A stretch of DNA of 64,000 bases, from positions 17,597,133-17,661,132 of the forward strand of contig OZ037769.1 of the NCBI GenBank assembly GCA_964035545.1, given 5' to 3'. The notes under the pieces are model-generated. The model worked only from the letters and a program-made list of their open reading frames with translations. It was not told the origin of the DNA and ran no database searches. This stretch comes from Bugula neritina. Its lineage: Eukaryota; Bryozoa; Gymnolaemata; Cheilostomatida; Bugulidae. Made by a program: the position numbers and the translations under genes. Below are positions 332 through 61,531 of this stretch, piece by piece (position 1 is the stretch's first letter; every line of letters begins with the position of its first letter).

Positions 332-3300
332 TCAGCTCTCTTTAGCTTCAGATATCAGGCTAACTTTCTTCAAGTCTTCTGCAAGCATGACAGACCTGTA
401 AGAACGAAAGCAACATATAGACAATGCATATATACCACAATTCAATAGTATACTGTAAAACTATGTAATAGTATGATATATCATACACTACTATACGATA
501 TATCATACACTACTATATGATATATCATACACTACTATACGGTATATCATACACTACTATACGATATATCATACATTACTGTACGGTATATCATACACTG
601 CTATACAGTATATCATACACTACTGTACGGTATATTATACACTGCTGTACGGTATATTATACACTACTATACGGTATATTATACACTACTATATGATATG
701 TCATACACTACTATACGGTATATTATACACTACTATACAGTATATCATACACTACTATACGGTATATTATACACTACTATACGGTATATTATACACTACT
801 ATACGGTATATTATACACTACTATACGGTATATTATACACTACTATACGGTATATCATACACTACTATACGGTATATTATACACTACTATACGGTATATT
901 ATACACTACTATACGGTATATCATACACTACTATACGGTATATTATACACTACTATACGGTATATTATACACTACTATACAAATGTCTAACCTGATGAAT
1001 CTGCGAGACTCTGTAAGCTTCTCCAACTGTTTGGATTTTTCTAGTCCCAAGTGAATCACCTGAGAGAGAAACTAGAGTTATAATGAACTAAACTGATGGA
1101 GGTGGAACACATAATAAAGACCTGGGAACTCGCATACCTTGCGGGGGAGACCAGCCAGTCGTGCCACATTGAAACCATAACTTTTGGGACAAAAGCTAGA
1201 AGCAAGTTTGTAGAGGAAAGTAATGGAGGAGTCGGCATCTGAAGCCCCGGCGTGTCGCGAGTCGTTCACTTCCTCATTCACCAGACATGCCTGCATGCGT
1301 ACAGTGGTAGATAGTACAGTGGTATATAGTAGAGTGGTATATAGTACAGTGGTATACAGTACAGTGGTATATAGTAGAGTGGTATATAGTAGAGTGGTAT
1401 ATAGTACAGTGGTAAATAGTACAGTAGTATATAGTAGAGTGGTATATAGTAGAGTGGTATATAGTACAGTGGTAAATAGTACAGTAGTATATAGTAGAGT
1501 GGTATATAGTAGAGTGGTATATAGTACAGTGGTATATAGTACAGTGGTATATAGTACAGTGGTATATAGTACAGTGGTATACAGTACAGTGGTATATAGT
1601 ACAGTGGTATATAGTAGAGTGGTATATAGTATAGTGGTATATAGTAGAGTAGTATATAGTACAGTGGTATATAGTACAGTGGTATATAGTAGAGTGGTAG
1701 ATAGTATAGTGGTATATAGCACAGTGGTATATAGTATAGTGGTATATAGTACAGTAGTATATAGTAGAGTGGTATATAGTACAGTGGTATATAGTACAGT
1801 GGTATATAGTATAGTGGTATATAGTACAGTGGTATATAGTAGAGTGGTATATAGTAGAGTGGTATATAGTACAGTGGTATACAGTACAGTGGTATATAGT
1901 AGAGTGGTATATAGTAGAGTGGTATATAGTACAGTGGTAAATAGTACAGTAGTATATAGTACAGTGGTATATAGTATAGTGGTATATAGTACAGTGGTAT
2001 ATAGTACAGTGGTATATAGTATAGTGGTATATAGTACAGTGGTAGATAGTACAGTGGTATATAGTAGAGTGGTATATAGTACAGTGGTATACAGTACAGT
2101 GGTATATAGTAGAGTGGTATATAGTAGAGTGGTATATAGTACAGTGGTAAATAGTACAGTAGTATATAGTACAGTGGTATATAGTACAGTGGTATATAGT
2201 ACAGTGGTATATAGTACAGTGGTATATAGTATAGTGGTATATAGTAGAGTGGTATATAGTACAGTGGTATATAGTACAGTGGTATATAGTACAGTGGTAT
2301 ATAGTACAGTGGTATATAGTACAGTGGTATATAGTAGAGTGGTAGATAGTATAGTGGTATATAGCACAGTGGTATATAGTATAGTGGTATATAGTACAGT
2401 AGTATATAGTAGAGTGGTATATAGTACAGTGGTATATAGTACAGTGGTATATAGTATAGTGGTATATAGTACAGTGGTATATAGTAGAGTGGTATATAGT
2501 AGAGTGGTATATAGTACAGTGGTATACAGTACAGTGGTATACAGTAGAGTGGTATATAGTAGAGTGGTATATAGTACAGTGGTAAATAGTACAGTAGTAT
2601 ATAGTACAGTGGTATATAGTATAGTGGTATATAGTACAGTGGTATATAGTACAGTGGTATATAGTATAGTGGTATATAGTACAGTGGTAGATAGTACAGT
2701 GGTATATAGTAGAGTGGTATATAGTACAGTGGTATACAGTACAGTGGTATATAGTAGAGTGGTATATAGTAGAGTGGTATATAGTACAGTGGTAAATAGT
2801 ACAGTAGTATATAGTAGAGTGGTATATAGTAGAGTGGTATATAGTACAGTGGTATATAGTACAGTGGTATATAGTACAGTGGTATATAGTATAGTGGTAT
2901 ATAGTACAGTAGTATATAGTAGAGTGGTATATAGTACAGTGGTATATAGTACAGTGGTATATAGTATAGTGGTATATAGTACAGTGGTATATAGTATAGT
3001 GGTATATAGTACAGTAGTATATAGTAGAGTGGTATATAGTACAGTGGTATATAGTACAGTGGTATATAGTATAGTGGTATATAGTACAGTGGTATATAGT
3101 AGAGTGGTATATAGTAGAGTGGTATATAGTACAGTGGTATATAGTAGAGTGGTATATAGTATAGTGGTATATAGTAGAGTGGTATATAGTAGAGTGGTAT
3201 ATAGTACAGTGGTATATAGTACAGTGGTATATAGTACAGTGGTATATAGTACAGTGGTATATAGTACAGTGGTATATAGTAGAGTGGTATATAGTACAGT

Positions 3301-6300
3301 GGTATATAGTAGAGTGGTATATAGTAGAGTGGTATATAGTAGAGTGGTATATAGTACAGTGGTATATAGTACAGTGGTATATAGTACAGTGGTATATAGT
3401 ACAGTGGTATATAGTACAGTGGTATATAGTACAGTGGTAGATAGTATAGTGGTATATAGTACAGTGGTATATAGTACAGTGGTATATAGTACAGTGGTAT
3501 ATAGTAGAGTGGTATATAGTACAGTGGTATATAGTACAGTGGTATATAGTACAGTGGTATATAGTATAGTGGTATATAGTAGAGTGGTATATAGTACAGT
3601 GGTATATAGTACAGTGGTAAATAGTACAGTGGTATATAGTACAGTGGTATATAGTACAGTGGTATATAGTACAGTGGTATATAGTACAGTGGTATATAGT
3701 ACAGTGGTATATAGTACAGTGGTATATAGTACAGTGGTATATAGTACAGTGGTATATAGTATAGTGGTATATAGTAGAGTGGTATATAGTAGAGTGGTAT
3801 ATAGTATAGTGGTATATAGTACAGTGGTATATAGTACAGTGGTATATAGTACAGTGGTATATAGTACAGTGGTATATAGTACAGTGGTAGATAGTACAGT
3901 GGTATATAGTACAGTGGTATATAGTACAGTGGCATATAGTAGAGTGGCATATAGTACAGTGGTATATAGTACAGTGGTATATAGTACAGTGGTATATAGT
4001 ACAGTGGTATATAGTACAGTGGTATATAGTACAGTGGTATATAGTACAGTGGTATATAGTACAGTGGTATATAGTAGAGTAGTATATAGTGCAGTGGTAT
4101 ATAGTAGAGTGGTATATAGTACAGTGGTATATAGTACAGTGGTATATAGTACAGTGGTAGATAGTATAGTGGTATATAGTACAGTGGTATATAGTACAGT
4201 GGCATATAGTAGAGTGGTATATAGTACAGTGGTATATAGTACAGTGGTATATAGTACAGTGGTATATAGTACAGTGGTATATAGTACAGTGGTATATAGT
4301 ACAGTGGTATATAGTACAGTGGTATATAGTACAGTGGTATATAGTACAGTGGTATATAGTACAGTGGTATATAGTACAGTGGTATATAGTACAGTGGTAT
4401 ATAGTAGAGTAGTATATAGTGCAGTGGTATATAGTAGAGTGGTATATAGTACAGTGGTATATAGACACTGTATATAATACAAACCATATGGCCGAGCTGA
4501 ATATACTGGTTGGCAATAAAGTCCTCCACCAGACTGTGGTAGTGGGTAGAGAATATGGTTCTACATTTGACGTGTTCAGCCAACTCATGAACCACAGCAG
4601 AGGCAATGGCTGTGCCGTCGTGTGTAGCTGTACCTCTACCTGCACAAGAAGGGTTAGACATGCTTAGAAATATGTTGGATATAAAATAAATATCTTGTAC
4701 CTTATAATCCAACATGTGCTTTACATATAAATGCTGTGTTTTATCAACAAGTAAATGTGTATAATTTCTTTTAATAACCTCGATTTATTTTACACACACA
4801 TATACATGTAGGAGAGAAGACAAACCTAATTCATCGAGTAAAACGAGGGAATGGCGGGTTGCGTGCTGAAGTATCAAACTCGTCTCACTGAGCTCTACAA
4901 AGAACGTGCTCTCTCCATGCATGAGACGGTCGTCAGCTCCGAGACGAGTAAACAGTCTATCTACTGGCGTCAGTCTACATTTCTCAGCTGGAACATGGCA
5001 GCCCTGTAACATTGTAGAGTAGTATTATAGAGTAGTATTATAGAGTAGTATTATAGAGTAGTATTATAGAGTAGTATTATAGAGTAGTATTATAGAGTAG
5101 TATTATAGAGTAGTATTATAGAGTAGTATTACAGAGTAGTATTACAGAGTAGTATTACAGAGTAGTATTATAGAGTAGTATTATAGAGTAGTATTATAGA
5201 GTAGTATTATAGAGTAGTATTATAGAGTAGTATTATAGAGTAGTATTATAGAGTAGTATTATAGAGTAGTATTATAGAGTAGTATTATAGAGTAGTATTA
5301 TAGAGTAGTATTATAGAGTAGTATTACAGAGTAGTATTATAGAGTAGTATTATAGAGTAGTATTATAGAGTAGTATTATAGAGTAGTTGACGCACCAACT
5401 GAGAGAGAATAGTAAGAAGGGCAACTTGTCTCATCAGTGTTGACTTTCCTCCCATATTTGGTCCAGTGAGAAGAAGGAGCTGAGCGCAGCTGTTGGCAGT
5501 TTCTGTGTTGTTCTAGAAAATAGGTGGTGTGTGTACACAGTGTGTACCAACACATGTGTGTACACAGTATGTACCAACACATGTGCGTACATAGTATGTA
5601 CCAACACATGTGTGTACACAGTGTGTACCAACACATGTGCGTACACAGTATGTACCAACACATGTGCGTACACAGTATGTACCAACACATGTGTGTACAC
5701 AGTATGTACCAACACAGTATGTACCAACACATGTGCGTATACTCACATCCTCCCAGCCTATCACAGTGTCGTTAGGTATGAAGTCACTTCCCCCAAACGT
5801 CTTGATAGAACACGGATGTCGGCCATCTCTGATGTCTAGAAATGCCTGTCAACACCATCAATACTGTGACTACAACTACTAGTACTGTGACTATAACTAG
5901 TACTGTGACTACAACTACTAGTACTGTGACTATAACTAGTACTGTGACTACAACTACTAGTACTGTGACTACAACTACTAGTACTGTGACTACAACTACT
6001 AGTACTGTGACTACAACTACTAGTACTGTGACTACAACTACTAGTACTGTGACTATAACTACTAGTACTGTGACTACAACTACTAGTACTGTGACTACAA
6101 CTACTAGTACTGTGACTACAACTACTAGTACTGTGACTATAACTACTAGTACTGTGACTACAACTACTAGTACTGTGACTACAACTACTAGTACTGTGAC
6201 TATAACTACTAGTACTGTGACTACAACTACTAGTACTGTGACTACTACTACTAGTACTGTGACTACAACAACTACTAGTACTGTGACTACAACAACTAGT

Positions 6301-9300
6301 ACTGTGACTACAACTACTAGTACTGTGACTATAACTACTAGTACTGTGACTACAACAACTAGTACTGTGACTACTACTACTAGTACTGTGACTATAACTA
6401 CTAGCAGCACAACTGCAAACTACTTGCCTGTGGGTAGACAGAAGACGACACAACTTCAGGTCTGCACATCACACCTTCATTTGTCATTGTATACGAGGCT
6501 AACGACTGCAAGACATCGAGCACACTGATGCTGTGGACTACACTCATCCAATCAGCATACCTGTAACAGTATACTCTACTACACTCATCCAATCAGCATA
6601 CCTGTAACAGTATACTGTACTACACTCATCCAATCAGCATACCTGTAACACTATACTCTACTACTCATCCAATCAGCATACCTGTAACAGTGTACTCTAC
6701 TACACTCATCCAATCAGCATACCTGTAACAGTATACTCTACTACACTCATCCAATCAGCATACCTGTAACACTATACTCTACTACTCATCCAATCAGCAT
6801 ACCTGTAACAGTGTACTCTACTACACCCATCCAATCAGCATACCTGTAACAGTATACTGTACTACACTCATCCAATCATCATACCTGTAACAGTATACTC
6901 TACTACACTCATCCAATCAGCATACCTGTAACAGTATACTGTACTACACTCATCCAATCAGCATACCTGTAACACTATACTCTACTACACTCATCCAATC
7001 AGCATACCTGTAACAGTATACTGTACTACACTCATCCAATCAGCATACCTGTAACAGCATACTGTATCGATAGTAATGCAACTCACCTTTCATCAAACTT
7101 ATTAAACAATTTCCTCATCGTGTCTTTGAGAGCAACATCTTGCTTAGCCTCAGCTTCCATCAGTTCGACGAGTAGGGCCTTAGTCTTCTGAGTGACGTAA
7201 CGCTTGTAGTTCTTCCTCTGTCCACTCAGCTCATATGTTGAAGGAACTCGTCCACTCACTGAGTCTGGTACCTCAAGTTGATAGCGATTCTTCGCTGTAC
7301 CCACATACTGTACCTGCTACAGTATATAATACATGTACCCACATACTGTACCTGCTACAGTATATAATACATGTACCCACATACTGTACCTGCTACAGTA
7401 TATAATACATGTACTCACATACTGTACCCACTACTGTATTATATTATACAGAAACTTGAGGAAACATTAACCTGGGTTCCTAAGAGCTTTCTCTGAGACT
7501 TCAGATACTCGTCCAACTGTAGACTCAGTTCTTCAATTTCCTTCACAGATTCATCATATTCCTCCACATAGCCTGAGGTAAACATACAATATACTATATA
7601 CTTCATAGATAGTCATATATATACTAGATAGTAATATATATACTAGATAGTTATATATACTAGATAGTTATATATACTAGATAGTTATATATATACTAGA
7701 TAGTAATATATATACTAGATAGTTATATATATACTAGATAGTAATATATATACTAGATAGTTATATACACTAGATAGTTATATATATACTAGATAGTTAT
7801 ATATACTAGATAGTTATATATACTAGATAGTTATATATATATACTAGATAGTTATATATACTAGATAGTAATATATATACTAGATAGTTATATATATACT
7901 AGATAGTTATATATACTAGATAGTTATATATATACTAGATAGTTATATATACTAGATAGTAATATATACTAGATAGTTATATATACTAGATAGTTATATA
8001 TACTAGATAGTTATATATACTAGATAGTTATATATACTAGATAGTTATATATACTAGATAGTTATATATACTAGATAGTAATATACACTAGATAGTTATA
8101 ATATACTAGATAGTTATATATATACTAGATAGTTATATATACTAGATAGTAATATATATACTAGATAGTTATATATATACTAGATAGTTATATATATACT
8201 AGATAGTTATATATACTAGATAGTTATATATATACTAGATAGTTATATATACTAGATAGTAATATATACTAGATAGTTATATATACTAGATAGTTATATA
8301 TACTAGATAGTTATATATACTAGATAGTTATATATACTAGATAGTTATATATATATACTAGATAGTTATATATATATACTAGATAGTTATATATATATAC
8401 TAGATAGTTATATATACTAGATAGTAATATATATACTAGATAGTTATATACACTAGATAGTTATAATATACTAGATAGTTATATATATACTAGATAGTTA
8501 TATATACTAGATAGTAATATATATACTAGATAGTTATATATATACTAGATAGTAATATATATACTAGATAGTTATTTATATACTAGATAGTTATATATAT
8601 ACTAGATAGTTATATATACTAGATAGTTATATATACTAGATAGTTATATATACTAGATAGTTATATATACTAGATAGTTATATATATATACTAGATAGTT
8701 ATATATACTAGATAGTTATATATACTAGATAGTTATATATATATACTAGATAGTTATATATATACTAGATAGTTATATATATACTAGATAGTTATATATA
8801 TACTAGATAGTTATATATATACTAGATAGTTATATATACTAGATAGTAATATATATACTAGATAGTTATATATATACTAGATAGTAATATATATACTAGA
8901 TAGTTATATATATACTAGATAGTTATATATATACTAGATAGTTATATATACTAGATAGTTATATATATACTAGATAGTTATATATACTAGATAGTAATAT
9001 ATACTAGATAGTTATATATACTAGATAGTTATATATACTAGATAGTTATATATACTAGATAGTTATATATATATACTAGATAGTTATATATATACTAGAT
9101 AGTTATATATATACTAGATAGTTATATATATACTAGATAGTTATATATACTAGATAGTTATATATATACTAGATAGTAATATATATACTAGATAGTAATA
9201 TATATACTAGATAGTTATATATACTAGATAGTTATATACACTAGATAGTTATATACACTAGATAGTTATATACTAGATAGTTATATATATACTAGATAGT

Positions 9301-15300: not shown

Positions 15301-15521
15301 CAGGAACTAAACTTTTCTACAAACTATATAAACTGTCAGATATGTGTTTACAGTATTTAGGAATCGGTTCAGTAGAAGAGTTAGACTCACCTTAAAGAAG
15401 AGCACAGTATCAAAGTGATCTTCCTTCAAATCCCACCATTGTCTCATGGCCTGCAAAGTAGACAACAAGTATGTTGTAGATGCATCAGGGACAATAGTTT
15501 ACGGTATAACACAGCATTACA

Positions 15522-15566
<45 letters not shown>

Positions 15567-17749: not shown

Positions 17750-18153
17750 TTCAGCTTCATCAAACTTAGTAAGTTGGGGTGCCTGTTCTCTCTATGTGTG
17801 CAAAAAACAAACGGTAACGGTAAGGCACAAGTATGGGATGGAATGTTGTTTATGAAGGGCCGAACACGTGCCTCTGTTCCCGCATTTTTTGTATAGCTAC
17901 GCGTCGTTCTAGATATCACTTTATTTCATATCATTAACGAACACTTATTTGTTAGTTTTCAATAACCTAAATTTCTAAATATGCACTTCTGACACCGACT
18001 GGCCCTCGTCTGCAGTTTCAAGAAGTACCTTAAGTACATTGCTACTAACTGATCGCTTGGTGCTATTTTACTTGAGAAGTTGAGCCTGACAATCATAATG
18101 ATTACTGAAATGTTGGATGCCCGACATTAGTAGATTTGATTATTGTAAGAACT
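17750..18153. promoter_or_regulatory. Putative bidirectional promoter between MSH6 and KIF13
   Basis: The MSH6 start codon (minus strand, 17749) and the KIF13 start codon (plus strand, 18154) are only 404 bp apart, head to head. The interval lacks tandem repeats and any convincing coding exon, and no clear TATA box stands out. That both transcripts start here is inferred from gene geometry. Transcription start sites cannot be placed from sequence alone. Confidence 0.6.
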
Positions 18154-39100: not shown

Positions 39101-42100
39101 GTGGCTGAGTCAGCCTGCTTAGACAAGGAGATGATCACAGAGTTCCTACAGCTACCTGTGCTCAGTGCGGACAATAATGTCAGTTCAATCACCTGCTCGT
39201 GGGACTCTAGTATACACAACTCCTTACATCTGAACAGAGTGACACCTGGCAATGAAAGAGTCTATCTCATAGTGAAAGTCTTGCTCTCACTCTCTCACCC
39301 TGCTCCCATCAACTTGACTCTCAGAAAGAGAATCTGTATCAATGTATATAAAAACAAGAGCTTTACTACAAAACTGAAGAAGAGATTAACACAGACAGCT
39401 TCTGTAAGTACTCTGTGTCACCCTGTACTCTGTGTCACCTTGTGCTTTGTGTCACCTTGTACTCTGTGTGTCACCTTGTACTCTGTGTGTCACCTTGTAC
39501 TCTGTGTGCCACCTTGTACTCTGTGTCACCTTGTACTCTGTATCACCTTGTACTTTGTGTCACCTTGTACTCTGTGTCACCCTGTACTCTGTGTCACCCT
39601 GTACTTTGTGTCACCTTGTACTCTGTGTCACCTTGTACTCTGTGTCACCTTGTACTCTGTGTCACCTTGTACTGTGTGTCACCTTGTACTCTGTGTCACC
39701 TTGTACTGTGTGTCACCTTGTACTCTGTGTCACCTTGTACTGTGTGTCACCTTGCACTGTGTGTCACCTTGTACTCTGTGTCACCTTGTACTGTGTGGCA
39801 CTTTGTATTGTGTGTCACTTGTGACGGTGTACTTCTCATGTCTGTCGCAGATATGGTTAAATTAGTCACTCGTTTAAGCCAGAGTTGTAATAAGTTAAGA
39901 GTCTTCTATGTAAACATTATCGTTGTAGAGTATGGGGGCGGGCCAAACCACAGTCAATAGGCTCCTGAATGTTCATGAAAATCTCACATCCTGTGGCATA
40001 CTGTATGATATAGTATCTAATATTCCTAAGGTAAGTATACTGTATAGTATATATCTAATATTCCTAAGGTAAGTATACTGTATGATATAGTATCTAATAT
40101 TCCTAAGGTAAGTATACTGTATAGTATATTATATATTCCTTAGGTAAGTATACTGTATAGTATATTATATATTCCTAAGGTAAGTATACTGTATGGTATA
40201 TTATATATTCCTAAGGTAAGTATACTATATAATCTATTATACATATTGCGCTGACAGGCATCAGAAGAGCTGGAGGACAGAGAGACAATGGCAAAGTTGG
40301 CAGCTGCCTCTGGATATGAGCACCAGGAGAGTACGGAAGATGGTGACTCATACATAGAAAAGTATATCAGGAGTGTGGCAGCAGTAGAGAGTATAATAAC
40401 GTTAGACAGACTGGGGCAGGTACTTGTATACTATAATATATACTAAGTGTAGACAGGCTGGGGCAGGTACTTGTATACTATAATATATACTAAGTGTAGA
40501 CAGGCTGGGGCAGGTACTTGTATACTGTAATATATACTAAGTGTAGACAGGCTGGGGCAGGTACTTGTATACTGTAATATATACTAAGTGTAGACAGGCT
40601 GGGGCAGGTACTTGTATACTATAATATATACTAAGTGTAGACAGGCTGGGGCAGGTACTTGTATACTATAATATATACTAAGTGTAGACAGGCTGGGGCA
40701 GGTACTTGTATACTATAATATATACTAAGTGTAGACAGGCTGGGACAGGTACTTGTATACTGTAATATATACTAAGTGTAGACAGGCTGGGGCAGGTACT
40801 TGTATACTGTAATATATACTAAGTGTAGACAGGCTGGGGCAGGTACTTGTATTGGACTCATGCATGCTGTTGTATGTACAGGAAGTGGCTATTAAAGACT
40901 CCTTGCTAGCGTCTGGCAGGTCTCCAAAGCGGACATTCAGTTCTCCCAATATTTCAGCTGTAAGTATAGTATACTCTCTCTCTACTCTCTCTCTACTCTC
41001 TCTCTACTCTCTCTCTCTACTCTCTGTACCACACTCACTCTCTTTCATTGATGAATACTTAGATGCTGGAGTCACTGTATGGCTCATTGCGCTCTGGAGT
41101 TGATGTATGTATCACTTTACCTTCAGTTATAGTTTCTTCATGCTGTCAGGTGGTACCTGCTGTCACCTGGTACCTGCTGTCACCTGGTACCTGCTGTCAC
41201 GTGGTACCTGCTGTCAGATGGTACCTGCTGTCACGTGGTACCTGCTGTCACATGGTACCTGCTCTCACATGGTACCTGCTGTCACGTGGTACATGCTGTC
41301 ACATGGTACATACTGTCACGTGGTACCTGCTGTCACATGCTAATAACCCGTTATATTGCTGAATGCTCTGGTGGCCGGCTGTCTTTCTAAGTACACATTG
41401 CATATGCATGTGGGGCTAACTCCTGGTGACCTTCACACTTCTGTGTCTGATAGAGTATTAGTTAGAGATGTTGATAGACAGTGTACTACGCTTATAGCAG
41501 CTTCTAATTGCTTCATGCTAAACACTCTGACCAGTTCAGCTATATACTATATAATATGTATTATATATATACTGTACAGTGTAGTATATACTGTATATTA
41601 TATATATACTATACAGTGTAGTATTTACTGTATAGTATATATAATATACAGTGTAGTATATACTGTATATTATATATACTATACAGTGTAGTATATACTG
41701 TATAGTATATATAATATACACCGAATGTATTTAGATTATGAAGAGCAGTACATCAACTCCCTCCTTTACAGAGAAAGTGAAATCTCCTTTGGTATGTCAT
41801 TAAATATACTCAAATACTTTGCAAATTATCTCACTGTGTTATACTCTACTCTGTATACTCTGTATACTCTGTATACTCTACACTGTATACTCTGTATACT
41901 CTGTGTACTCTGTATACTCTGTATACTCTACTCTGTATACTCTGTATACTCTACTCTGTATACTCTGTGTACTCTGTATACTCTGTATACTCTACTCTGT
42001 ATACTCTGTATACTCTGTATACTCTACACTGTATACTCTACTCTGTATACTCTGTATACTCTGTATACTCTGTATACTCTGTATACTCTGTATACTCTGT

Positions 42101-45100
42101 ATACTCTGTATACTCTGTATACTCTGCATACTCTGCATACTCTGTACACTCTGTACACTCTGTGTACTCTGTGTACTCTGTATACTCTGTGTACTCTGTA
42201 TACTCTGTACACTCTGTACACTCTGTATACTCTGCATACTCTGCATACTCTGTATACTCTGTGTACTCTACTCTGTATACTCTGTATACTCTGTATACTC
42301 TGTGTACTCTGTATACTCTGTGTACTCTGTGTACTCTGTATACTCCGTATACTCTACTCTGTATACTCTGTATACTCCGTATACTCTACTCTGTATACTC
42401 TGTGTACTCTGTATACTCTGTGTACTCTGTATACTCTGTGTACTCTGTGTACTCTGTGTACTCTGTGTACTCTGTATACTCTGTGTACTCTGTATACTCT
42501 GTATACTCTACTCTGTATACTCTACTCTGTATACTCTACTCTGTATACTCTACTCTGTATACTCTACTCTGTATACTCTGTATACTCTGTATACTCTGTA
42601 TACTCTGTGTACTCTGTGTACTCTGTGTACTCTGTATACTCTGTATACTCTGTATACTCTGTATACTCTACTCTGTATACTCTGTATACTCTGTATACTC
42701 TGTATACTCTGTATACTCTGTATACTCTGTGTACTCTACTCTGTATACTCTGTATACTCTGTATACTCTGTATACTCTGTGTACTCTGTATACTCTGTGT
42801 ACTCTGTATACTCTGTGTACTCTGTGTACTCTGTGTACTCTGTGTACTCTGTGTACTCTGTATACTCTACTCTGTATACTCTGTATACTCTGTATACTCT
42901 GTATACTCTGTATACTCTGTATACTCTACTCTGTATACTCTGTATACTCTGTGTACTCTGTGTACTCTGTGTACTCTGTGTACTCTGTGTACTCTGTGTA
43001 CTCTGTATACTCTACTCTGTATACTCTGTATACTCTGTATACTCTGTATACTCTGTATACTCTGTATACTCTGTATACTCTGTATACTCTACTCTGTATA
43101 CTCTGTATACTCTGTATACTCTGTATACTCTGTATACTCTGTATACTCTGTATACTCTGTATACTCTGTATACTCTGTATACTCTGTATACTCTGTATAC
43201 TCTGTATACTCTACTCTGTATACTCTGTGTACTCTGTATACTCTGTGTACTCTGTATACTCTGTATACTCTGTATACTCTGTATACTCTGTATACTCTGT
43301 ATACTCTGTATACTCTGTATACTCTGTATACTCTGTATACTCTGTATACTCTGTATACTCTGTATACTCTGTATACTCTGTATACTCTGTATACTCTGTA
43401 TACTCTGTATACTCTGTATACTCTGTATACTCTGTATACTCTGTATACTCTGTATACTCTGTGTACTCTACTCTGTATACTCTGTCTACTCTGTATACTC
43501 TGTATACCCTGTATACTCTGTTAAGGTGCGACTGAGTGAGAGTTTTCAGGATTTGTCTCGCCATGTAATGAAGTCCTCAGGCTACACAAGTAGCCCGCTC
43601 TCTCAAGAGTCATCTCTCCCCGCCACTCAACCTGCAGACAACTCCAAACTAGGTAAGTATATACTGCTTGCTCAGTCTCCTTGCCTGCAGCACCTGCCTG
43701 TCTCTTTCTCAGACTAAGTGTGTGTCAGTCTCTCAGTCTATCTCATGTAATACTCTCTCTTTTACCTTAGTACTGCCCGAGTGTCCTACTATAACAGAGG
43801 TATGTCTATATGGTTAGTCATGCTTCAATATATATCCAATATGTATTGTATACGCTCAATGTATGTAAGCTGTATTGTCATTGGCTCTCACAATATATTG
43901 TATCCACTCTAGAGTCTAGTATCTACTCTCAGTTGTATACTTTAGTACATTCTATTGGCTGCTGGAATAAATAGCTAAGTCGAGTAGTGGCATGCTGACC
44001 ATGTGGGCTTACCTCTCTCTCTCTCTCTGTGTGCTATTTCATTTCTCCTCTCAGTTTGTATTTCATTTCACCTCTCAGTTTGTATTTCATTTCACCTCTC
44101 AGTTTGTATTTCACCTCTCAGTTTGTATTTCACCTCTCAGTTTGTATTTCACCTCTCAGTCTATTGCTGCTAGTCTATTGCTGCTAGTCTATTACTGCTA
44201 GTCTATTGCTGCTAGTCTATTACTGCTAGTCTATTGGTCGTATACATATTTTAGGCAAGCAGACTTATCTGTCAGGATCGTGCTGTGATTTGCGATCAGG
44301 TTGGATTTTCATCTGTTTCTTGCACTTCTGATTATTTCACTTATTTTTGCTGGTATTGATTGTGACTAACTTATGCTATGGAAACATAGTAGTTGTCTCC
44401 TCTTAAATCTAACTCTTCAGTACTAGTTACTAGTAGCAGTGTCTAACTCTTCAGTACTAGTTACTAGTAGAAGTATCTAACTCTTCAGTACTAGTTACTA
44501 GTAGCAGTATCTAACTCCTCAGTACTAGTTACTAGTAGTAGTATCTAACTCCTTAGTACTAGTTACTAGTAGCAGTATCTAACTCCTTAGTACTAGTTAC
44601 TAGTAGCAGTGTCTAACTCTTCAGTACTAGTTACTAGTAGCAGTGTCTAACTCTTCAGTACTAGTTACTAGTAGCAGTATCTAACTCTTCAGTACTAGTT
44701 ACTAGTAGAAGTATCTAACTCCTCAGTACTAGTTACTAGTAGCAGTATCTAACTCCTTAGTACTAGTTACTAGTAGCAGTGTCTAACTCTTCAGTACTAG
44801 TTACTAGTAGCAGTACCTAACTCTTCAGTACTAGTTACTAGTAGCAGTATCTAACTCCTCAGTACTAGTTACTAGTAGTAGTATCTAACTCCTTAGTACT
44901 AGTTACTAGTAGCAGTATCTAACTCCTTAGTACTAGTTACTAGTAGCAGTGTCTAACTCTTCAGTACTAGTTACTAGTAGCAGTGTCTAACTCTTCAGTA
45001 CTAGTTACTAGTAGCAGTGTCTAACTCCTCAGTACTAGTTACTAGTAGAAGTATCTAACTCTTCAGTACTAGTTACTAGTAGCAGTGTCTAACTCCTCAG

Positions 45101-48100
45101 TACTAGTTACTAGTAGCAGTGTCTAACTCCTTAGTACTAGTTACTAGTAGCAGTGTCTAACTCTTCAGTACTAGTTACTAGTAGCAGTATCTAACTCTTC
45201 AGTACTAGTTACTAGTAGCAGTGTCTAACTCTTCAGTACTAGTTACTAGTAGCAGTGTCTAACTCCTCAGTACTAGTTACTAGTAGCAGTATCTAACTCC
45301 TCAGTACTAGTTACTAGTAGCAGTGTTACTCATACCTCATCTAATCTATTTTATTATTTCAAGGTTGCTAAGAATACACTTTTGTTTTCATCACTTTTAT
45401 AGCTGCTTGACTATGCAAACTCACTTGCTTTTCATGTTACCTGTGTTGCCAAGTATTAGTTATTCATTTTAGTTAATCCAGTCAAACTACCTATGTACTC
45501 CTGTCACCTGTGTACTCCTGTCACCTGTGTAATCTTGTCACCATCTACCTGTGTACTCTTGTCACCTGTGTACTCTTGTCATCTGTGTACTCCTGTCACC
45601 TGTGTAATCTTGTCACCTGTGTACTCCTGTCACCTGTGTAATCTTGTCACCATCTACCTGTGTAATCCTGTCGCCATCTACCTGTGTACTCCTGTCACCT
45701 GTGTGATCCTGTCACCATCTACCTATGTACTCTTGTCGCCTGTGTAATCCTGTCACCTGTGTACTCCTGTCACCTGTGTAATCCTGTCACCTGTGTAATC
45801 CTGTCACCATCTACCTGTGTACTCCTGTCACCATCTACCTGTGTACTCCTGTGTTATCTAGGAAGCAGAGAGTTGGCAGACAGGACTCCATCAGACGAGG
45901 GGTACGGCAGCACGCCGAGACGACTCACTGATGACACTAGAACAGAGCAGCAGATGGAAACACCATTTAGTGATGAGAGTAGAAAGATTGTCCGCTCTGA
46001 TAATGTGCAAAGTGAATCACCAGTGAGTCATCATCTCTCTCTAGCATTCTATTATATTATTATCTTATTTGGTTATATTACTATATTATATTAAATAATT
46101 ATATAATATTATTCTATATCTATTTCCTCTCACATCCACCTCAGGTCAGGTATACACATGTTATTCACTACTTTTCATTTCCTTTGTTTCCGTGTGGTTT
46201 TCAATATTTTCTGGCGTGTAGTGTATTCTTATCAGCCTACATCAGCACTTGGGTGCACCATAAATACAAAATCAGTGTGTTGCTGGGCAACTCAGTGTGT
46301 TACTGGGCAACTCAGTGTGTTGCTGGGCAACTCAGTGTGTTGCTGGGCAACTCAGTGTGTTGCTGGGCAACTCAGTGTGTTGCTGGGCAACTCAGTGTGT
46401 TACTGGGCAACCCAGTGTGTTACTGGGCAACCCAGTGTGTTGCTGGGCTAGTTGCTACTGCACAGCAGCAAGTTTACAAGTATTTGTAGGAGATAAAATG
46501 CAAATTAACAAAGTTATGCCCATTTTTATATTAAGGGTAACTTGCTCAATTATCATGATTAGGAGTAATTAATGCATATTCAGTCCTGGCTACTTTCTGT
46601 GGCCTAGTTTTTATTCACCAATCACCTGTCATTAACCATTTTCGTCCACCAATCTCTTTGTCATTAGCAAATCTCGCTTATACCTTCGGGGTCGAGTTTT
46701 GATCAAATTCCAATTATTTACTAATATAACATCACTCACTGGGAGTCATTTAATATCACTTATTATGAGTCGTTTAGTATCACTCACTACGAGTCATTTC
46801 GTATCACTCACTATGAGTCGTTTAGTATCACTCGCTATGAGTCATTTAGTATCATTCACTATGAGTCATTCAGTATCACTCACTATGAGTCATTTAGTAC
46901 CAGTCACTCTTTACTCTCATCACCTCTATATCACGGATTATCACTTGAAGGAAAGTAAATATAAAGTCTCTTGGACTACACTAGCACTTCTAACTCATCA
47001 CATTATGAAGACAGTGTGACCAGGAGATTGATGCTATAGTTGAATATATCATCAGCTATCAAGTGAATGGATACCTGAGTTGGCTTTGCAATATTGTGGC
47101 TAATTATTGCCTATAATAGCACCAACAATATTTTTATCATTTCTGCATGCATTTTGGTTGGTAAGAATTGCCTGCAGTCCCTGCTGTTCTAACACTATAT
47201 GGTATTGGCATGAGTTGATAGTCACTAGCACTTCCTACCAACCAGCTTCTGCTATCAGTAAACTCCAACAACACCAAGTGGAGAGCATTACCTCTTAACC
47301 TATTGTAAGCTGTATTTTAATTGGATTATCAGAAAGTAAGCTCTCTGCTGATTGGCTGAAAGAAAATTGATGATTTTAGGTCTCCATCGAAACAGATTTT
47401 AAAAGAATAAAACCAGAAGCAAGAAACCATGAAACAGGAGCCCTTACAGCTAATACATTCCATAGTAGCACCAGACCTAGTTATAGTCCTACTCATAGTC
47501 CTAGTCCTACTCATAGTCCTACTAATAGTCATATTCATAGTCCTATTCATAGTCCTACTCGCAGTCATAGTCCTAGTCCTACTCATACTCATAGTCATAC
47601 TGATAGTGATATCTATGCTCCCCATTCAACCCACCACCCACCTTTGGAGCATAAATCTGAGGACAATAATGTTGCCAGAGGTCACAGCATTCCAGCCAAT
47701 ACTAAGCCTAGTAACAGTCAATTAGCCAATCAGGCTCAGCAAACAGTAGCTGGTACACCAATAGACAGCCAGTGTGATACAGCTGCTGACACTCCTAGAC
47801 GTGGAGAATCTGCTGGGTTACTCCCGGCTAAGGAAGAAGACAACTCCCAGAGACTGTCGGTGAGCTCTGATTTGCTGTATGATTGGTTGACAAGAGACAA
47901 TGCATGCTGGGATAGCGCTGACAGGAAATATGTGTCAGGTTACACGGCCCTTGGGCTACTGATTGTAGGTACAGGTGGAGGAAAAGACAAGCCAACGGTT
48001 GAACATCTCACAAGATGCCAGCTGTGAAGAGGTCTATGAAGAGGATGGAGACAGCAGTTTACACGGTGAAAGAGAAGACAAATCTAGAGTACATATGCAT

Positions 48101-49551
48101 AGTGATATTTACAGGTAGAGTATATATACATAGTGATATTTACAGGTAGAGTGCATATAGAGTATTATATTACTACTAGGGAGTACATATAGAGTATTAT
48201 ATTATTACTAGGGAGTACATATAGAGTATTATATTACTACTAGGGAGTACATATAGAGTATTATATTATTACTAGGGAGTACATATAGAGTATTATATTA
48301 TTACTAGGGTGTACATATAGAGTATTATATTATTACTAGGGTGTACATATAGAGTATTATATTATTACTAGGGAGTACATATAGAGTATTATATTATCAC
48401 TAGGGTGTACATATGTTGCTATTACTGACAGCATGAATGCACTGGATGAATTGGAAGCTCTAAGTGACAGCATGGATTCTCTCAACTCCATCGACTGCGA
48501 AGATGACGAAATCTGTGACATATCCCAGCGTGCACCATCCGACATTTCTCAACCAGAAACAAAAGCTTTAGGAGAGTCCGGGGCGCCGTTATTGGTTGAT
48601 GACGATGAGGAGAGCGTGGCAGGAAGTGATGTCGATCAAGATGAGCTGAGTTTGTGTTCTTTTGGCAGCACAGCAGATCTGAACGCCTGTGGCAGCGCTC
48701 CGCTGCCTGCTTGGATTGAGGTGAGAGAATTGCTTGTAGTACAGGTGGGAGTATTATAGTAATATATTCTACAGGTGGGAGTATTATAGTAATATATTCT
48801 ACAGGTGGGAGTATTATAGTAATATATTCTACAGGTGGGAGTATTATAGTAATATATTCTACAGGTGGGAGTATTATAGTAATATATTCTACAGGTGGGA
48901 GTATTATAGTAATATATTCTACAGGTGGGAGTACCAGTTATTATTATAGTAATATATTCTACAGGTGGGAGTACTAGTTATTATTATAGTAATATATTCT
49001 ACAGGTGGGAGTATTATAGTAATATATTCTACAGGTGGGAGTACTAGTTATTATTATAGTAATATATTCTACAGGTGGGAGTACCAGTTATTGTGCTGTC
49101 AACAAAGGGCGACTCCCCTGAGAAAGGTTACATCAGATTCATCGGTGAAACCGACTTTGCAGCAGGGTCGTGGGTCGGAGTTCAACTCGACAGCATGAAA
49201 GGTGAGCTGTAGAAGGTCAAGGTGACAGGATGTTTATCTGATCATCACCTCACAAGTGTCACACAAAGCCATTCAATTTTCATGATCGTTTCTGTTGTAG
49301 GTAAGAACAACGGCACTGTTCATGGTAGAAGTTATTTTCATTGCAAGCCAAACCAAGGAGTGTTTGTTAGACACGACCGGCTCCTTCTGGACAAGAAGAG
49401 AAGTAGCAAGTCATTTACCAATGAGACTCCCACCCCAGCCACTCCTCCCCCTTCCAAAGAACATTCTAGTAGGTCTAAAACTGCACCGATTGCCACCTCT
49501 ACTCCCTCGTACCTCAAACCTACGCAGTCCAGTAAATCTCGTAAGAACTGA
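18154..49551 (+). CDS. KIF13B: KIF13-like kinesin-3 with C-terminal CAP-Gly (at least 32 coding exons)
   Basis: A plus-end-directed kinesin-3 cargo motor resembling vertebrate KIF13B/GAKIN, cytoplasmic on microtubules. The model closes at about 1931 aa (human KIF13B 1826). It starts [19 protein letters not shown]. Motor motifs: P-loop GQTGSGKS split between exons 5 and 6 (~108-115), switch I SSRSH (~225-229), switch [11 protein letters not shown] (~257-265). A neck coiled coil follows, then FHA (~460-563, ending [15 protein letters not shown]). The KIF1-type stalk and the later block of exons 17-20 align with human KIF13B ([21 protein letters not shown]-like, PVIFLDLN). [10 protein letters not shown] corresponds to the human SPNVN region regulated by Par1/14-3-3. 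A Ser/Pro/His-rich linker encoded by exon 29 precedes CAP-Gly (~1807-1890; [13 protein letters not shown]). CAP-Gly separates KIF13B-type from vertebrate KIF13A, but this may be the single ancestral KIF13. Uncertain points are exon 27 and the GTCATC donor of exon 16. Confidence 0.93.
18212..18967 (+). other. KIF13 intron 1, array-free
   Basis: One of few introns here without a clear minisatellite. It has loosely repeated GTGA/GTCA motifs around 18290-18770. Confidence 0.6.
19105..20303. repeat. 36-bp minisatellite (~30 copies), KIF13 intron 2
   Basis: Unit contains CTGCAGTACTGGTTACTCTA. It is interrupted three times by a ~34-bp segment containing TTATCTCCAGTCTGTACAG, so a higher-order structure exists. 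Because 36 is a multiple of three, several frames stay open on both strands. The only coding use is a neighbouring 100-nt exon. Confidence 0.97.
20420..20441 (+). CDS. KIF13B: 22-nt microexon of KIF13 (exon 3)
   Basis: Bounded by TATTTTTAG and GTATGT, it completes a split Ser codon and adds HVKHQPK just before [12 protein letters not shown], where human KIF13B has [15 protein letters not shown]. It is needed for the motor reading frame (phase 2 in, 0 out). Exons this short are easily missed by predictors. Confidence 0.85.
20605..21072. repeat. 19-bp minisatellite, KIF13 intron 3
   Basis: CATACTGTATACTGTACCA and derived forms, about 24 units, increasingly irregular to the right. Confidence 0.95.
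22050..22320. repeat. 19-bp minisatellite, start of KIF13 intron 5
   Basis: TCTGTATTCTATGCTATAC and shortened forms, about 15 units, beginning within 15 bp of the exon 5 donor. Confidence 0.93.
22738..23720. repeat. 20-bp minisatellite (~49 copies), KIF13 intron 5
   Basis: AGCACTTGGTACTGTAGCAT with three binary variant sites (ttgg/ttag, ctgta/ctata/ctgca). Variant strings repeat, for example around 23220 and 23520, showing block duplication of ~300 bp. Confidence 0.97.
23950..24385. repeat. AT-rich TATACTCTACTATA repeat, KIF13 intron 5
   Basis: Irregular units of 10-14 bp. Confidence 0.85.
24625..24950. repeat. 64-bp minisatellite, end of KIF13 intron 5
   Basis: Five copies, the longest unit in the window. 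Each carries AACTAAGTA and its inverse TACTTAGTT about 35 bp apart, so each copy can form a hairpin. Confidence 0.95.
25157..25325. repeat. 28-bp repeat: tandem splice-site cassettes, KIF13 intron 6
   Basis: Six copies directly after exon 6. Each unit begins GTATGTGTAA (5' splice site) and ends CTCTCCTGTCAG, the last bases of exon 6. The array is thus exon end plus donor copied in tandem, and each unit looks like a miniature GT...AG intron. Confidence 0.95.
25895..25990. repeat. ACT/AGT trinucleotide tract, KIF13 intron 8
   Basis: Alternating ACTACTAGTACTAGTAGTAC; self-complementary low-complexity sequence. Confidence 0.85.
26345..27256. repeat. 21-bp minisatellite (~43 copies) starting at the exon 9 donor, KIF13 intron 9
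   Basis: The unit begins GTAACTGTTTAGTATCAACT and the first unit is the 5' splice site itself. The array is extremely uniform (only tcgac/tcaac and ctgtt/ctatt variants), so it is recent or actively homogenised. Confidence 0.97.
27500..27648. repeat. 22-bp minisatellite, KIF13 intron 10
   Basis: About 7 copies containing GTACTCTGTATAGTATATAC. Confidence 0.93.
27800..27950. repeat. TAGTTAGTAGA-type repeat, KIF13 intron 11
   Basis: Irregular GTTAGTAGATTA / GTTAGTAGAGTA units. Confidence 0.85.
28376..28740. repeat. 14-bp pyrimidine-rich minisatellite, KIF13 intron 12
   Basis: About 26 units of CCCCTCTTCACTAC with ctgcc/ctacc variants. The sense strand is almost purine-poor. The true acceptor (28829) lies ~90 bp downstream. 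Confidence 0.95.
28970..29285. repeat. 40-bp minisatellite, start of KIF13 intron 13
   Basis: About 8 copies containing CTAGTAGTTGTCATACCCTG. The first copy overlaps the exon 13 donor region (GTATGCTGCTGTGTACTATC). Confidence 0.94.
29429..29446 (+). CDS. Possible 18-nt KIF13 microexon in intron 13
   Basis: After TTTTTAACAG comes 18 nt that could add six codons (split Ala, then ISGRE) between exons 13 and 14, followed by GTAGGA. The phase is exactly compatible (1 in, 1 out). No family conservation is evident, so this is a suggestion only. Confidence 0.2.
29605..30345. repeat. 21-bp minisatellite (~35 copies), KIF13 intron 13
   Basis: CATAGACATAGACACTGATC with gattac/gatcac and shortened 15-bp variants. 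Confidence 0.97.
30600..32535. repeat. 15-bp minisatellite (~120 copies), KIF13 intron 13
   Basis: GTAGTATATAGTGTA with gtatgt and ctag variants. Block duplications are visible: the string around 30600-30860 recurs around 30830-31080 (~228 bp period). It passes into an AT-rich TATAGTAGAGTATA tail. Confidence 0.96.
32760..32825. repeat. 12-bp repeat, KIF13 intron 14
   Basis: Five to six copies of CATTGACCTTTG. Confidence 0.9.
33030..33195. repeat. ~10-bp CAGTACACTACT repeat, KIF13 intron 15
   Basis: Irregular ACTCAGTACA units starting six bases after the exon 15 donor. Confidence 0.88.
33400..35610. repeat. 34-bp minisatellite (~65 copies), KIF13 intron 16
   Basis: Units combine CTCTACATACACTCTGTATC and TACTACTATATA, with blocks lost or gained. 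Near-identical blocks of ~300 bp recur (for example 35080-35260 and 35380-35560). Open frames of >700 codons here are repeat artefacts. Confidence 0.97.
36115..36500. repeat. 17-bp minisatellite, KIF13 intron 17
   Basis: About 22 copies of GTATATAGTTACTACTA with atata/ataca variants. Confidence 0.95.
37013..38400. repeat. 25-bp minisatellite (~54 copies) starting at the exon 18 donor, KIF13 intron 18
   Basis: The unit contains AATACACTGTATATTATATT and ends ATTATAG. The first unit is the donor (GTAATACACTG). Variants atatac, tttgta and gtgtat recur in blocks. Confidence 0.97.
38570..38998. repeat. 31-bp minisatellite ending at the exon 20 acceptor, KIF13 intron 19
   Basis: About 13 copies containing CCACTCTTATATATACTGTG. 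The true acceptor (GCGGATTGTAG) is a mutated last unit in which ATTGTAA became ATTGTAG. Confidence 0.94.
39408..39825. repeat. 17-bp minisatellite, KIF13 intron 20
   Basis: About 24 copies of CTCTGTGTCACCTTGTA, starting within the exon 20 donor (GTAAGTACTCTGTGTC). Confidence 0.95.
40031..40225. repeat. 39-bp repeat carrying exon 21 end and donor, KIF13 intron 21
   Basis: About 5 copies. Each begins GTAAGTATACTGTAT and ends TCTAATATTCCTAAG, the last 15 bases of exon 21. Confidence 0.95.
40420..40855. repeat. 47-bp repeat carrying exon 22 end and donor, KIF13 intron 22
   Basis: About 9 copies. Each begins GTACTTGTATACT and ends TAGACAGGCTGGGGCAG. Exon 22 ends TTAGACAGACTGGGGCAG. Confidence 0.96.
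40970..41040. repeat. CTCTCTACT pyrimidine tract, KIF13 intron 23
   Basis: Short CTCTCTACTCT units after the exon 23 donor. Confidence 0.85.
41150..41340. repeat. 17-bp minisatellite, KIF13 intron 24
   Basis: About 11 copies of GGTACCTGCTGTCACGT with a/g variants. Confidence 0.94.
41530..41720. repeat. Palindromic AT-rich repeat, KIF13 intron 24
   Basis: TATACTGTATA / TATACAGTGTAG units that are largely self-complementary; they end just before the exon 25 acceptor. Confidence 0.85.
41835..43520. repeat. 9-bp minisatellite (~185 copies), KIF13 intron 25
   Basis: TATACTCTG with tgtgt, tacac and ctact variants. The 9-bp period leaves open frames of 500-600 codons that are not genes. It runs right up to the exon 26 acceptor (CTGTTAAG). 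Confidence 0.97.
43771..43812 (+). CDS. Possible optional 42-nt KIF13 exon
   Basis: The block opens after TTTACCTTAG and reads LPECPTITE from its second base. A good donor (GTATGT) after 43799 would leave phase 0, which does not fit exon 28. The next donor (GTTAGT) after 43812 gives phase 1 and keeps the frame. The exon 26 to 28 splice without it is also in frame, so it may be alternative or not an exon. Confidence 0.35.
44035..44235. repeat. 18-bp and 14-bp short arrays, KIF13 intron 26/27
   Basis: CTCAGTTTGTATTTCACC units followed by CTATTGCTGCTAGT units. Confidence 0.9.
44405..45330. repeat. 34-bp minisatellite (~27 copies), KIF13 intron 26/27
   Basis: Units contain CAGTACTAGTTACTAGTAGC and CTAACTC. 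ACTAGTTACTAGT is nearly self-complementary. Variant strings (cagtgt/cagtat/aagtat, cttc/cctc/cctt) show block duplication. Confidence 0.97.
45490..45860. repeat. 17-bp minisatellite ending at the exon 28 acceptor, KIF13
   Basis: GTGTACTCCTGTCACCT, with longer units carrying CACCATCTACCT. The last unit runs into the acceptor (GTGTTATCTAG). Confidence 0.95.
46275..46450. repeat. 18-bp minisatellite, KIF13 intron 28
   Basis: About 10 copies of GTGTTGCTGGGCAACTCA. TTGCTGGGCAA is a near-perfect hairpin and resembles an X-box half (GTTGCTGGGCAAC). Confidence 0.95.
46725..46910. repeat. 24-bp minisatellite, KIF13 intron 28
   Basis: About 8 copies containing GAGTCGTTTAGTATCACTCA. Confidence 0.92.
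47478..47610 (+). repeat. Coding minisatellite in KIF13 exon 29 (Ser-Pro-Thr-His repeats)
   Basis: Units of 6-12 bp built from AGTCCTACTCAT encode a run of SPTHSP-like residues with HS, NSH and RSH variants. Unit lengths stay multiples of three, so the frame is kept through the whole 480-nt exon (phase 0 in and out). It lies in the presumably disordered linker before CAP-Gly and offers many Ser-Pro sites. It is the only clear tandem array in the window that sits in real coding sequence. Confidence 0.75.
48085..48415. repeat. 31-bp and 32-bp repeats at exon 30 donor, KIF13 intron 30
   Basis: The end of exon 30 (CATAGTGATATTTACAG) plus donor GTAGAG is copied once more. Then about 9 copies of a 32-mer containing GAGTACATATAGAGTATTAT follow. 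Confidence 0.92.
48745..49074. repeat. 30-bp repeat carrying the exon 32 acceptor, KIF13 intron 31
   Basis: About 11 copies, each ending ATATTCTACAG and beginning GTGGGAGTA, which are the acceptor and first nine bases of exon 32. Only the last copy continues into CAP-Gly coding sequence. A decoy splice would soon hit an in-frame stop (GTATTATAG). Confidence 0.96.
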
Positions 49552-49674
49552 TTTGCTGATAGGAATGGTGCTGTGAGACCACACATCTTGTCCCTTCTAT
49601 TGGCCAGGTTGATGTTGAGGAGTTGTCAGTGAATCTGTGCTTAAACATTAGCTAATGCTTGAGGATATTTACAA

Positions 49675-49965
49675 GTGTTCTGTGACATACTGAGTACAGT
49701 GCTCTGTGACATACTGAGTACAGTGCTCTGTGACATACTGAGTACGGTGTTCTGTGACATACTGAGTACGGTATTCTGTGACATACTGAGTACAGTGCTC
49801 TGTGACATGCTGAGTGCAGTGCTCTGTGACATGCTGAGTGCAGTGCTCTGTGACATACTAAGTACAGTGCTCTGTGACATACTGAGTACGGTGTTCTGTG
49901 ACATACTGAGTACGGTGCTCTGTGACATACTGAGTACAGTGTTCTGTGACATACTGAGTACCTAT
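49675..49965. repeat. 24-bp minisatellite in the KIF13 3' UTR
   Basis: About 12 copies containing GAGTACAGTGCTCTGTGACA. Each copy has ACAG-TGCT-CTGT, a small RNA hairpin. It lies after the stop codon and before the AATAAA. Confidence 0.94.
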
Positions 49966-50347
49966 GAGGTGAAAAATGCTGATGTCATTTTCTTGGGATA
50001 TATTTTTCAATTTTGAAACTTAATTCATAGAAATATTTCCTGGTTGTACACACGCCCAGTTTAAACTATCAAGCTCCTTTCTCATATCCTACTTACACTG
50101 CCTGTAACTAGGACTTTTTAAATCGTATCATAGGTTTTGCTTACTCCAGATTGTATGATTGGTTATATATAAAGCATCTACAATATTATTATGAACTACT
50201 TGATAATTAATTGTTGTTTATTATTTATATTGCAAGCATTCAATGCTTTATTTACCTCCTTTTTCATCATGTCATTTACTTATTCAATTTATGAAACTAT
50301 TTTTAGATTAACTTACACTTTTAAGTGTAGCATATTGTGGGTGATTC

Positions 50348-50353
50348 AATAAA
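50348..50353 (+). terminator. KIF13 poly(A) signal (AATAAA)
   Basis: This is the first canonical AATAAA on the plus strand after the KIF13 stop, giving a 3' UTR of about 0.8 kb. It faces the esterase poly(A) signal about 45 bp away. Confidence 0.6.
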
Positions 50354-61530: not shown

Positions 61531-61531
61531 A

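Follow-up and report, generated by a model that had tools for sequence, protein, structure and literature searches.

Separate minisatellites occupy nearly every modelled intron of two neighbouring genes near a chromosome end of Bugula neritina

In the bryozoan Bugula neritina, two adjacent genes near a chromosome end, one for an MSH6-like mismatch repair protein and the other for a KIF13-type kinesin, have introns that consist largely of minisatellites, with at least 30 nt of tandem repeat in 38 of the 43 introns that we modelled (22 of 26 in MSH6 and 16 of 17 in the kinesin gene). Both genes lie in a window of 64 kb, the whole stretch of DNA analysed (C5:17597133-17661132), which is subtelomeric because contig C5 (17720077 bp) ends about 59 kb beyond the last base of the window, in telomere repeat. 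The repeat units that we tested are of local origin, and in samples from the rest of the assembly tandem repeats were denser near chromosome ends than in the interior and denser in gene-bearing than in other DNA. The explanation that we favour, and hold to be probable though far from assured, is that the introns grew in place by local duplication in a zone near the chromosome end, with a bias towards gene bodies.

The structures of the host genes were predicted by joining the reading frames between arrays at GT-AG sites that keep the frame and fit a splice consensus.

332..17749, minus strand: MSH6-like mismatch repair gene, spliced model of 27 exons and 26 introns
18150..49551, plus strand: KIF13-type kinesin gene, with Pfam Kinesin matches at four exons, motor exons from about 22 kb and, by eye, a CAP-Gly-like end

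The MSH6 model is a single intact frame of 1111 amino acids over 27 exons, five of which are shorter than 70 bp. Against solved MutS proteins it matched MSH6 (2o8b_B, human MSH6, 1.4e-295; 8ag6_B, MSH6, 9.7e-294) far ahead of the best non-MSH6 protein, Msh3 (5.9e-87), and on this predicted protein we identify the minus-strand gene as MSH6. Among the best 120 of 7777 proteins compared with residues 600-1100, the closest was MSH6 of the bryozoan Watersipora subatra (67% identity), all others reaching at most 54%. The Watersipora entry lists no PF00855 (PWWP) domain, which is given for most other animal MSH6 among the proteins listed, and the window model is likewise short. The plus-strand kinesin we take to be KIF13, from features recognised by eye, and the same applies to its CAP-Gly end. 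Its first exon was placed by eye near 18150-18250, which gives a length to 49551 of about 31 kb, as the preliminary description of this DNA had put it. The kinesin model comprises 17 introns and excludes intron 1 as well as all exons beyond 40.4 kb; its borders are partly uncertain (39179-39928 is doubtful, and one modelled pair that gave no intron was dropped before the count).

Tandem repeats were identified with Tandem Repeats Finder (TRF), with coverage calculated at a score of at least 50 and arrays counted at a score of at least 100. Across the window, 139 TRF rows merged into 75 intervals covering 33.9 of the 64 kb, and repeat cover amounted to 64% of positions 332-49551 versus 15% of the remaining window. 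The first of these regions holds 60 non-redundant arrays with periods of 3-162 and a median match of 92% (43 at 90% or more); the preliminary description had counted at least 50, which agrees, and had given units of 9-64 bp, which proved too narrow a range. Apart from a few with microsatellite or higher-order units, these 60 arrays are minisatellites in the usual sense of head-to-tail units of about 6-100 bp at high identity. They run from about 70 bp to 3.2 kb, the longest being 3183 bp of a 15-bp unit.

Repeat makes up 70% of the MSH6 span (about 12.2 of 17.4 kb, close to the 12 of 17 kb first estimated), with 87% of its introns and 1.6% of its exons covered, and 83% of the 17 modelled kinesin introns. 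In the 38 array-bearing introns the median repeat share is 86% and 15 introns reach at least 90%, leaving a median non-repeat remainder of 45 nt (range 6-892); the five introns free of arrays measure 78, 115, 153, 186 and 278 nt. The claim that nearly every intron holds an array is thus borne out for the introns within the models. Likewise, the description of the exons as spared and in frame fits the low exon coverage and intact frame of MSH6, with the qualification that exon sequence lies inside arrays at four junctions. Per kilobase of non-repeat DNA, there are 9.8 arrays in the modelled introns, 1.3 in 17750-21905, 0.57 in 49552-64000, which contains an esterase-like gene, and 0.11 in 54000-64000. 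The arrays are listed below with TRF coordinates, intron coordinates from the spliced gene models and no strand assigned.

477..980: 22-bp unit, MSH6 intron 396-991
1299..4481: 15-bp unit, 212 copies, filling MSH6 intron 1291-4484 with 11 nt left
5011..5387: 13-bp unit, MSH6 intron 5004-5395
5528..5724: 27-bp unit, MSH6 intron 5513-5746
5862..6404: 21-bp unit, MSH6 intron 5836-6423
6537..7063: junction-spanning at intron 6561-7086, 41-bp unit that includes the 3' splice site and the start of the exon; private genome-wide (33 unit bases searched)
7296..7439: junction-spanning at intron 7314-7471, 38-bp unit that includes the 3' splice site and the start of the exon
7606..10012: 17-bp unit, MSH6 intron 7573-10040
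10117..10233: 12-bp unit, MSH6 intron 10096-10267
10371..10497: 54-bp unit with strong inverted-repeat content, MSH6 intron 10353-10515
10706..10857: 27-bp unit, MSH6 intron 10606-10865
10970..11268: 25-bp unit, near-copies of both splice sites, MSH6 intron 10970-11274
11514..12104: 62-bp unit, MSH6 intron 11443-12112
12312..12738: 16-bp unit, 17 near-copies of the 5' splice site, MSH6 intron 12301-12731
13048..13162: 30-bp unit, MSH6 intron 13012-13194
13420..14551: adjoining arrays, one of a 14-bp and one of a 60-bp unit, MSH6 intron 13398-14553
14692..15144: 41-bp unit, MSH6 intron 14690-15162
15522..15639: TAG microsatellite, MSH6 intron 15451-15644
15817..16239: 24-bp unit, MSH6 intron 15777-16248
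16598..16756: 25-bp unit, MSH6 intron 16579-16777
16929..17091: 32-bp unit, near-copies of the 5' splice site, MSH6 intron 16884-17088
19114..20301: 36-bp unit, presumed first kinesin intron
20609..21073: 19-bp unit, presumed first kinesin intron
22051..22311: 19-bp unit, kinesin intron 22040-24972
22737..23721: 20-bp unit, same intron; private genome-wide
23972..24380: 19-bp unit, same intron
24630..24948: 64-bp unit, same intron
25138..25329: junction-spanning at intron 25157-25358, 28-bp unit that includes the end of the exon and the 5' splice site; private genome-wide
25896..25990: short ACT-type array, kinesin intron 25884-26104
26345..27253: array; private genome-wide
27496..27646: 22-bp unit, intron 27483-27656
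27811..27961: 12-bp based unit, intron 27768-27975
28379..28736: 13-bp unit, intron 28364-28829
28970..29357: arrays of 40- and 21-bp units, intron 28962-32553
29603..30345: 21-bp unit, same intron
30606..32532: 15-bp unit, 127 copies, same intron
32761..32826: 12-bp unit, intron 32723-32860
33058..33206: arrays of 12- and 28-bp units, intron 33024-33221
33397..35633: 34/68-bp unit, intron 33355-35645
36115..36511: 17-bp unit, intron 36107-36510
37013..38429: array, from TRF and the gene model
38585..38999: 31-bp unit, intron 38565-39000
39408..39822: 17-bp unit, modelled intron 39179-39928, boundaries uncertain
39998..40241: junction-spanning at intron 40031-40257, 36-bp unit that includes the end of the exon and the 5' splice site
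40403..46448: more arrays, lying among the unmodelled 3' exons of the kinesin gene, such as 41847-43521 (9-bp unit, 195 copies) and 44407-45324 (34-bp unit, private genome-wide)
46731..49092: further arrays between the unmodelled last kinesin exons, from TRF

The four junction-spanning arrays repeat the end of the adjoining exon and were therefore made in place. Copies of the exon sequence flanking a splice site lay in the adjoining intron for 4 of 86 boundaries, compared with 1 of 3612 comparisons with other introns, and near-copies of splice sites were similarly concentrated in their own introns (5' sites, 5 of 43 versus 16 of 1806 control comparisons; 3' sites, 5 of 43 versus 11 of 1806). 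Five of the 60 units were searched across the whole 215.8-Mb assembly, two at up to 1 mismatch and three at up to 2, and their matches (34, 41, 25, 11 and 6) all fell within the array of origin; none of the five thus occurs at many loci, as the unit of a dispersed satellite or transposon would. Related sequence across many introns, of the kind introners would leave, was likewise not found among the units: identity of at least 80% was seen in 1 of 373 pairs of similar length, and over the 1225 pairs of 50 units the sharing of 8-mers equalled the dinucleotide-shuffle expectation (263 versus 262), with 10-mers exceeding it (83 versus 59, sd 5.5). An excess of shared units that had appeared over mononucleotide shuffles vanished for 8-mers under dinucleotide shuffles and remained for 10-mers. 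From their sequences, we read the tested arrays as having arisen where they stand, rather than by the spread of a repeat family. The earlier proposals that units are not shared between introns and that amplification was local and independent in each intron accord with these results, the 10-mer excess notwithstanding.

The density of arrays in the window is far above the genome background, since twenty 10-kb interior samples, taken from C1-C5 at round coordinates no closer than 1 Mb to a contig end, averaged 6% repeat with a maximum of 25%. Eight 5-kb samples located about 35-180 kb from contig ends contained 10-84% (8 vs 20, p = 8e-5), an enrichment near chromosome ends of the type described for human variable number tandem repeats (VNTRs). 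Gene status of the samples was assigned by a Pfam scan of 40 reading frames, with a host-gene match at E of 0.01 or less. Pfam was used because the reversed sequence, with repeats unmasked, yielded more high-scoring frames than the real one, and the coding score was rejected as a gene finder. Six interior samples were gene-bearing (ERMP1; PRMT5; hydrolase; UPF0004; ADH and UFD1; XendoU), and these had a mean of 12.8% repeat versus 3.2% in the others (6 vs 14, p = 0.0003). The hydrolase (0.0097, PSPH by eye), UPF0004 and ADH matches fall below the Pfam cut-off and UFD1 above it; with over-cut-off matches only, the values were 11% and 4.8% (4 vs 16, p = 0.017). Sample L023 (C3, 2.0 Mb), where a DUF4618 match of 0.0095 lies beside a Mutator-like transposase, was kept among the 14 non-gene samples, and moving it to the gene-bearing group gave p = 0.002. 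Without C5, p was 0.018 (3 vs 9).

At the ends, the three samples with an over-cut-off match (importin, 64%; rabaptin, 63.5%; arginyl-tRNA synthetase, 84%) ranged from 63 to 84% repeat versus 10-21% in the other five (3 vs 5, p = 0.018). In the arginyl-tRNA synthetase sample an array fills the gap between consecutive exons, and 75% of a 2.1-kb intron is repeat in a kinesin gene lying some 130 kb inside the C4 end, in line with a prior prediction of at least 50%. Thus four sampled chromosome-end genes besides the MSH6 and kinesin pair show similar fill, and interior genes much less. Repeat density seems to depend on nearness to a chromosome end as well as on gene body. Equal density in intergenic DNA had been named beforehand as evidence against an intron-directed process; in our samples density was unequal in both zones. 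An intron-directed process is partly supported to that extent; it is not general to the introns of this genome, as three interior kinesin genes attest, and is strongest near the ends.

The units share an unusual vocabulary. Relative to non-repeat interior DNA, 67 arrays were enriched in GTAC (5.5-fold), AGTA (5.1-fold) and TATA (4.4-fold) and depleted in AAA (0.08), and a weaker bias was found in 37 interior arrays (1.4, 3.6, 3.9 and 0.35, respectively). Median unit GC is 36%. Within 50 units, bases recur more than in shuffles at lags 5, 7 and 12 and less at 4, 6, 8 and 11 (lag 5, z 3.2; lag 7, z 4.3), and 6-mers recur 396 times versus 151 expected; higher-order units reported as one by TRF may explain part of this recurrence. 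(TAC)-type microsatellites are possible seeds of the units because (TAC)10 is so common genome-wide (6889 matches versus 67 for the reversed control). CpG observed/expected is 0.14 in arrays of the MSH6 span and 0.06 in those of the kinesin span, compared with 0.52 and 0.42 in non-repeat DNA.

Several candidate drivers were rejected. Gene-body methylation was set aside as CpG depletion of the flanks had no correlation with repeat cover (rho 0.08, p = 0.76). Hairpin-driven growth as a general cause was dismissed on unit folding, which averaged z -0.22 against dinucleotide shuffles (13 arrays below -1 and 7 above 1, among 60 arrays with a score of at least 150 in the whole window). R-loops or transcription-linked skew were rejected on coding-strand GC skew, positive in 22 cases and negative in 22, and an origin of the vocabulary in splice signals on the near symmetry of coding-strand GTA and TAC (0.074 versus 0.064).

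Beyond the two genes, we made a number of observations on the window and the assembly. (TTTGGGG)n fills the last 9.3 kb of the C5 contig end (locus L029, 677-10000). A four-unit TTTGGGG pattern occurs 13226 times in the assembly, and among the first places listed it is densely clustered near the C1 end (C1:35629184 onward); the telomere repeat of this genome seems to be TTTGGGG rather than TTAGGG. In the window, carboxylesterase-like frames were recognised by eye on the minus strand at 50688-53489, and about 55105-55945 is a member of an interspersed family with copies of 68-77% identity on C6, C7 and C8, while C3 has a short match at 80%. Ty3-type retroelement frames were noted by eye at 2.0 Mb on C2 (L020). 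On 18 of 19 small contigs listed between C42 and C292, kinesin motor matches read through TAA or TAG, and these contigs are likely contaminants with a ciliate-type genetic code.

According to the explanation that we favour, introns that were short beforehand would have grown where they stand as local tandem duplication and slippage recurred, each intron drawing on its own sequence. This growth would be strong within about 180 kb of chromosome ends, the zone that we sampled, and weak inside, with gene bodies favoured in both. Selection would remove copies that break the frame, leaving coding exons nearly free of arrays, and introns would retain only the few dozen bases needed for splicing. The driver may be that DNA near chromosome ends, where it is transcribed or recombining, breaks more often or more often switches template during repair; 5- and 7-base TA/C/T words may seed the units, and the arrays would have no function of their own. 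Intron growth is usually ascribed to transposons. In a more far-reaching version, tandem duplication would be tied to the gene body, by way of transcription or of splicing, would be amplified near ends and would give almost every intron that it reaches a minisatellite of its own. That would amount to transposon-free intron growth beyond boundary duplications; we regard this version as possible but doubtful.

Several results weigh against in-place growth favoured by gene bodies near chromosome ends. Gene body alone is insufficient for arrays, because three interior kinesin genes, with exons placed by Pfam and chosen by hand from about 30 listed, have 0, 10 and 0% repeat across their motor-domain stretches, and sample L033, which lies about 315 kb from an end and was judged by eye to bear a gene, has 1%. 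Three of the six interior gene-bearing samples, including the highest three, are on C5, and with C5 removed and strict matches only the interior gene effect was not significant (p = 0.09, 2 vs 10); alternative sortings of the interior samples gave p = 0.0009, 0.007 and 0.018. L034, near the C5 start and tetraspanin-like by eye, has 21% and was counted as no-match (moving it to the gene-bearing end group gave p = 0.014). Few samples were taken, and their coverage had already been seen when they were sorted into gene-bearing and other. Telomere repeat was seen only at the C1 and C5 ends, the contig ends of C2, C3 and C4 and the start of C5 being presumed chromosome ends. Flank CpG depletion shows no correlation with repeat content, and the favoured explanation does not account for the TA-rich, AAA-poor and CpG-poor vocabulary. 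Finally, transposons may have diluted the intergenic DNA, which need not be less prone to arrays: selection accounts for the spared exons and not for fewer arrays in less constrained intergenic DNA, for which transposon turnover could account.

This last point leads to the strongest rival, regional instability alone, whereby all non-coding DNA near ends gains minisatellites equally and intergenic DNA is then replaced by transposons. End samples with no gene match exceed their interior counterparts (5 vs 14, p = 8.6e-5), human VNTRs are enriched near chromosome ends (PMC7608644), the segment at about 55105-55945 belongs to an interspersed family, and the interior gene effect weakens to p = 0.09 as above. 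Within the end zone itself, however, gene-bearing samples far exceed the others (63-84% vs 10-21%), and 54000-64000 holds a single array in its 9.0 kb of non-repeat DNA compared with 43 in 4.4 kb in the modelled introns, and we judge this rival unlikely, if still a serious one. It is quite improbable that the introns themselves were created by tandem duplication, arrays and introns being equally young, as in the intron gain model put forward for amphioxus globins (PMC3087553). The four junction-spanning arrays fit that model, but they involve only 4 of 86 boundaries, and two borders of the window's kinesin exons (at approximate motor-profile positions 220 and 288) also occur in other kinesin genes of the genome. 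These two introns look old and are now 58% and 98% array, which argues for the entry of arrays into introns already present. MSH6 intron phases (0/1/2, 15/7/4) do not discriminate.

We attach very little probability to arrays with a splicing or regulatory role kept by selection. A link between minisatellites in introns and alternative splicing has been reported for Caenorhabditis elegans (PMC4039745), and near-copies of 5' and of 3' splice sites each occur in 5 of 43 introns; the units are nevertheless unrelated, their arrays vary from about 70 bp to 3.2 kb, coding-strand GC skew is directionless (22 up, 22 down) and three interior kinesin stretches are almost without arrays. Least probable of all are transposon-borne repeats or an assembly artefact. 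Some satellites derive from transposons, but spread by transposons is refuted for the five tested units, which are private; in addition, four arrays contain local exon, the MSH6 frame is intact over 27 exons and similar arrays occur on C1, C2 and C4.

To our knowledge, human introns are not filled with arrays in this way. The preliminary statement that no standard repeat class does so was nevertheless too strong, as two systems are comparable: amphioxus 'mirages' (PMC3087553) and human end-enriched VNTRs (PMC7608644). Mirages (Adh3, globin, TnC, PGBD5) are minisatellites with units of 10-160 bp that lie over exon-intron boundaries and reportedly leave splicing undisturbed (PMC3087553, PMC3902484). 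They are closest in kind; four window arrays span boundaries, the set as a whole does not, and the predicted MSH6 frame is intact. Unlike mirages, which affect few boundaries in few genes, the window arrays occupy 38 of 43 modelled introns of two genes with units crossing 4 of 86 boundaries and not the other 82, are of a type densest near chromosome ends and belong to a different phylum. Human subtelomeric VNTRs, some of them intronic, are closest in distribution, with the same strong enrichment near ends, but theirs is driven by units above 60% GC (PMC7608644), a value exceeded by none of the 60 window units. The intronic minisatellites of C. elegans (PMC4039745) share the placement, and intron gain by tandem duplication (PMC4974935, PMC2891723) shares local duplication that includes splice signals, while the reports on intron gain appear to concern the origin of single introns rather than long arrays in many. 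The window case differs from mirages and human VNTRs in its extent, its composition and its dependence on chromosome end and gene body. Literature titles, which are no proof of absence, included none on intron minisatellites in bryozoans, and the main text of the Flustra foliacea genome paper contains 'tandem repeat' and 'intron' 0 times (PMC13326412).

Collectively, as far as was tested, a long run of neighbouring introns grew independently of one another out of local sequence, while the exons between them kept their frame; MSH6 alone would represent some twenty separate births of arrays. That a mismatch repair gene is itself affected is probably chance. The gradients with distance from the chromosome end and with gene body mean that the mutational cause of minisatellite birth can be tested by counting within one genome.

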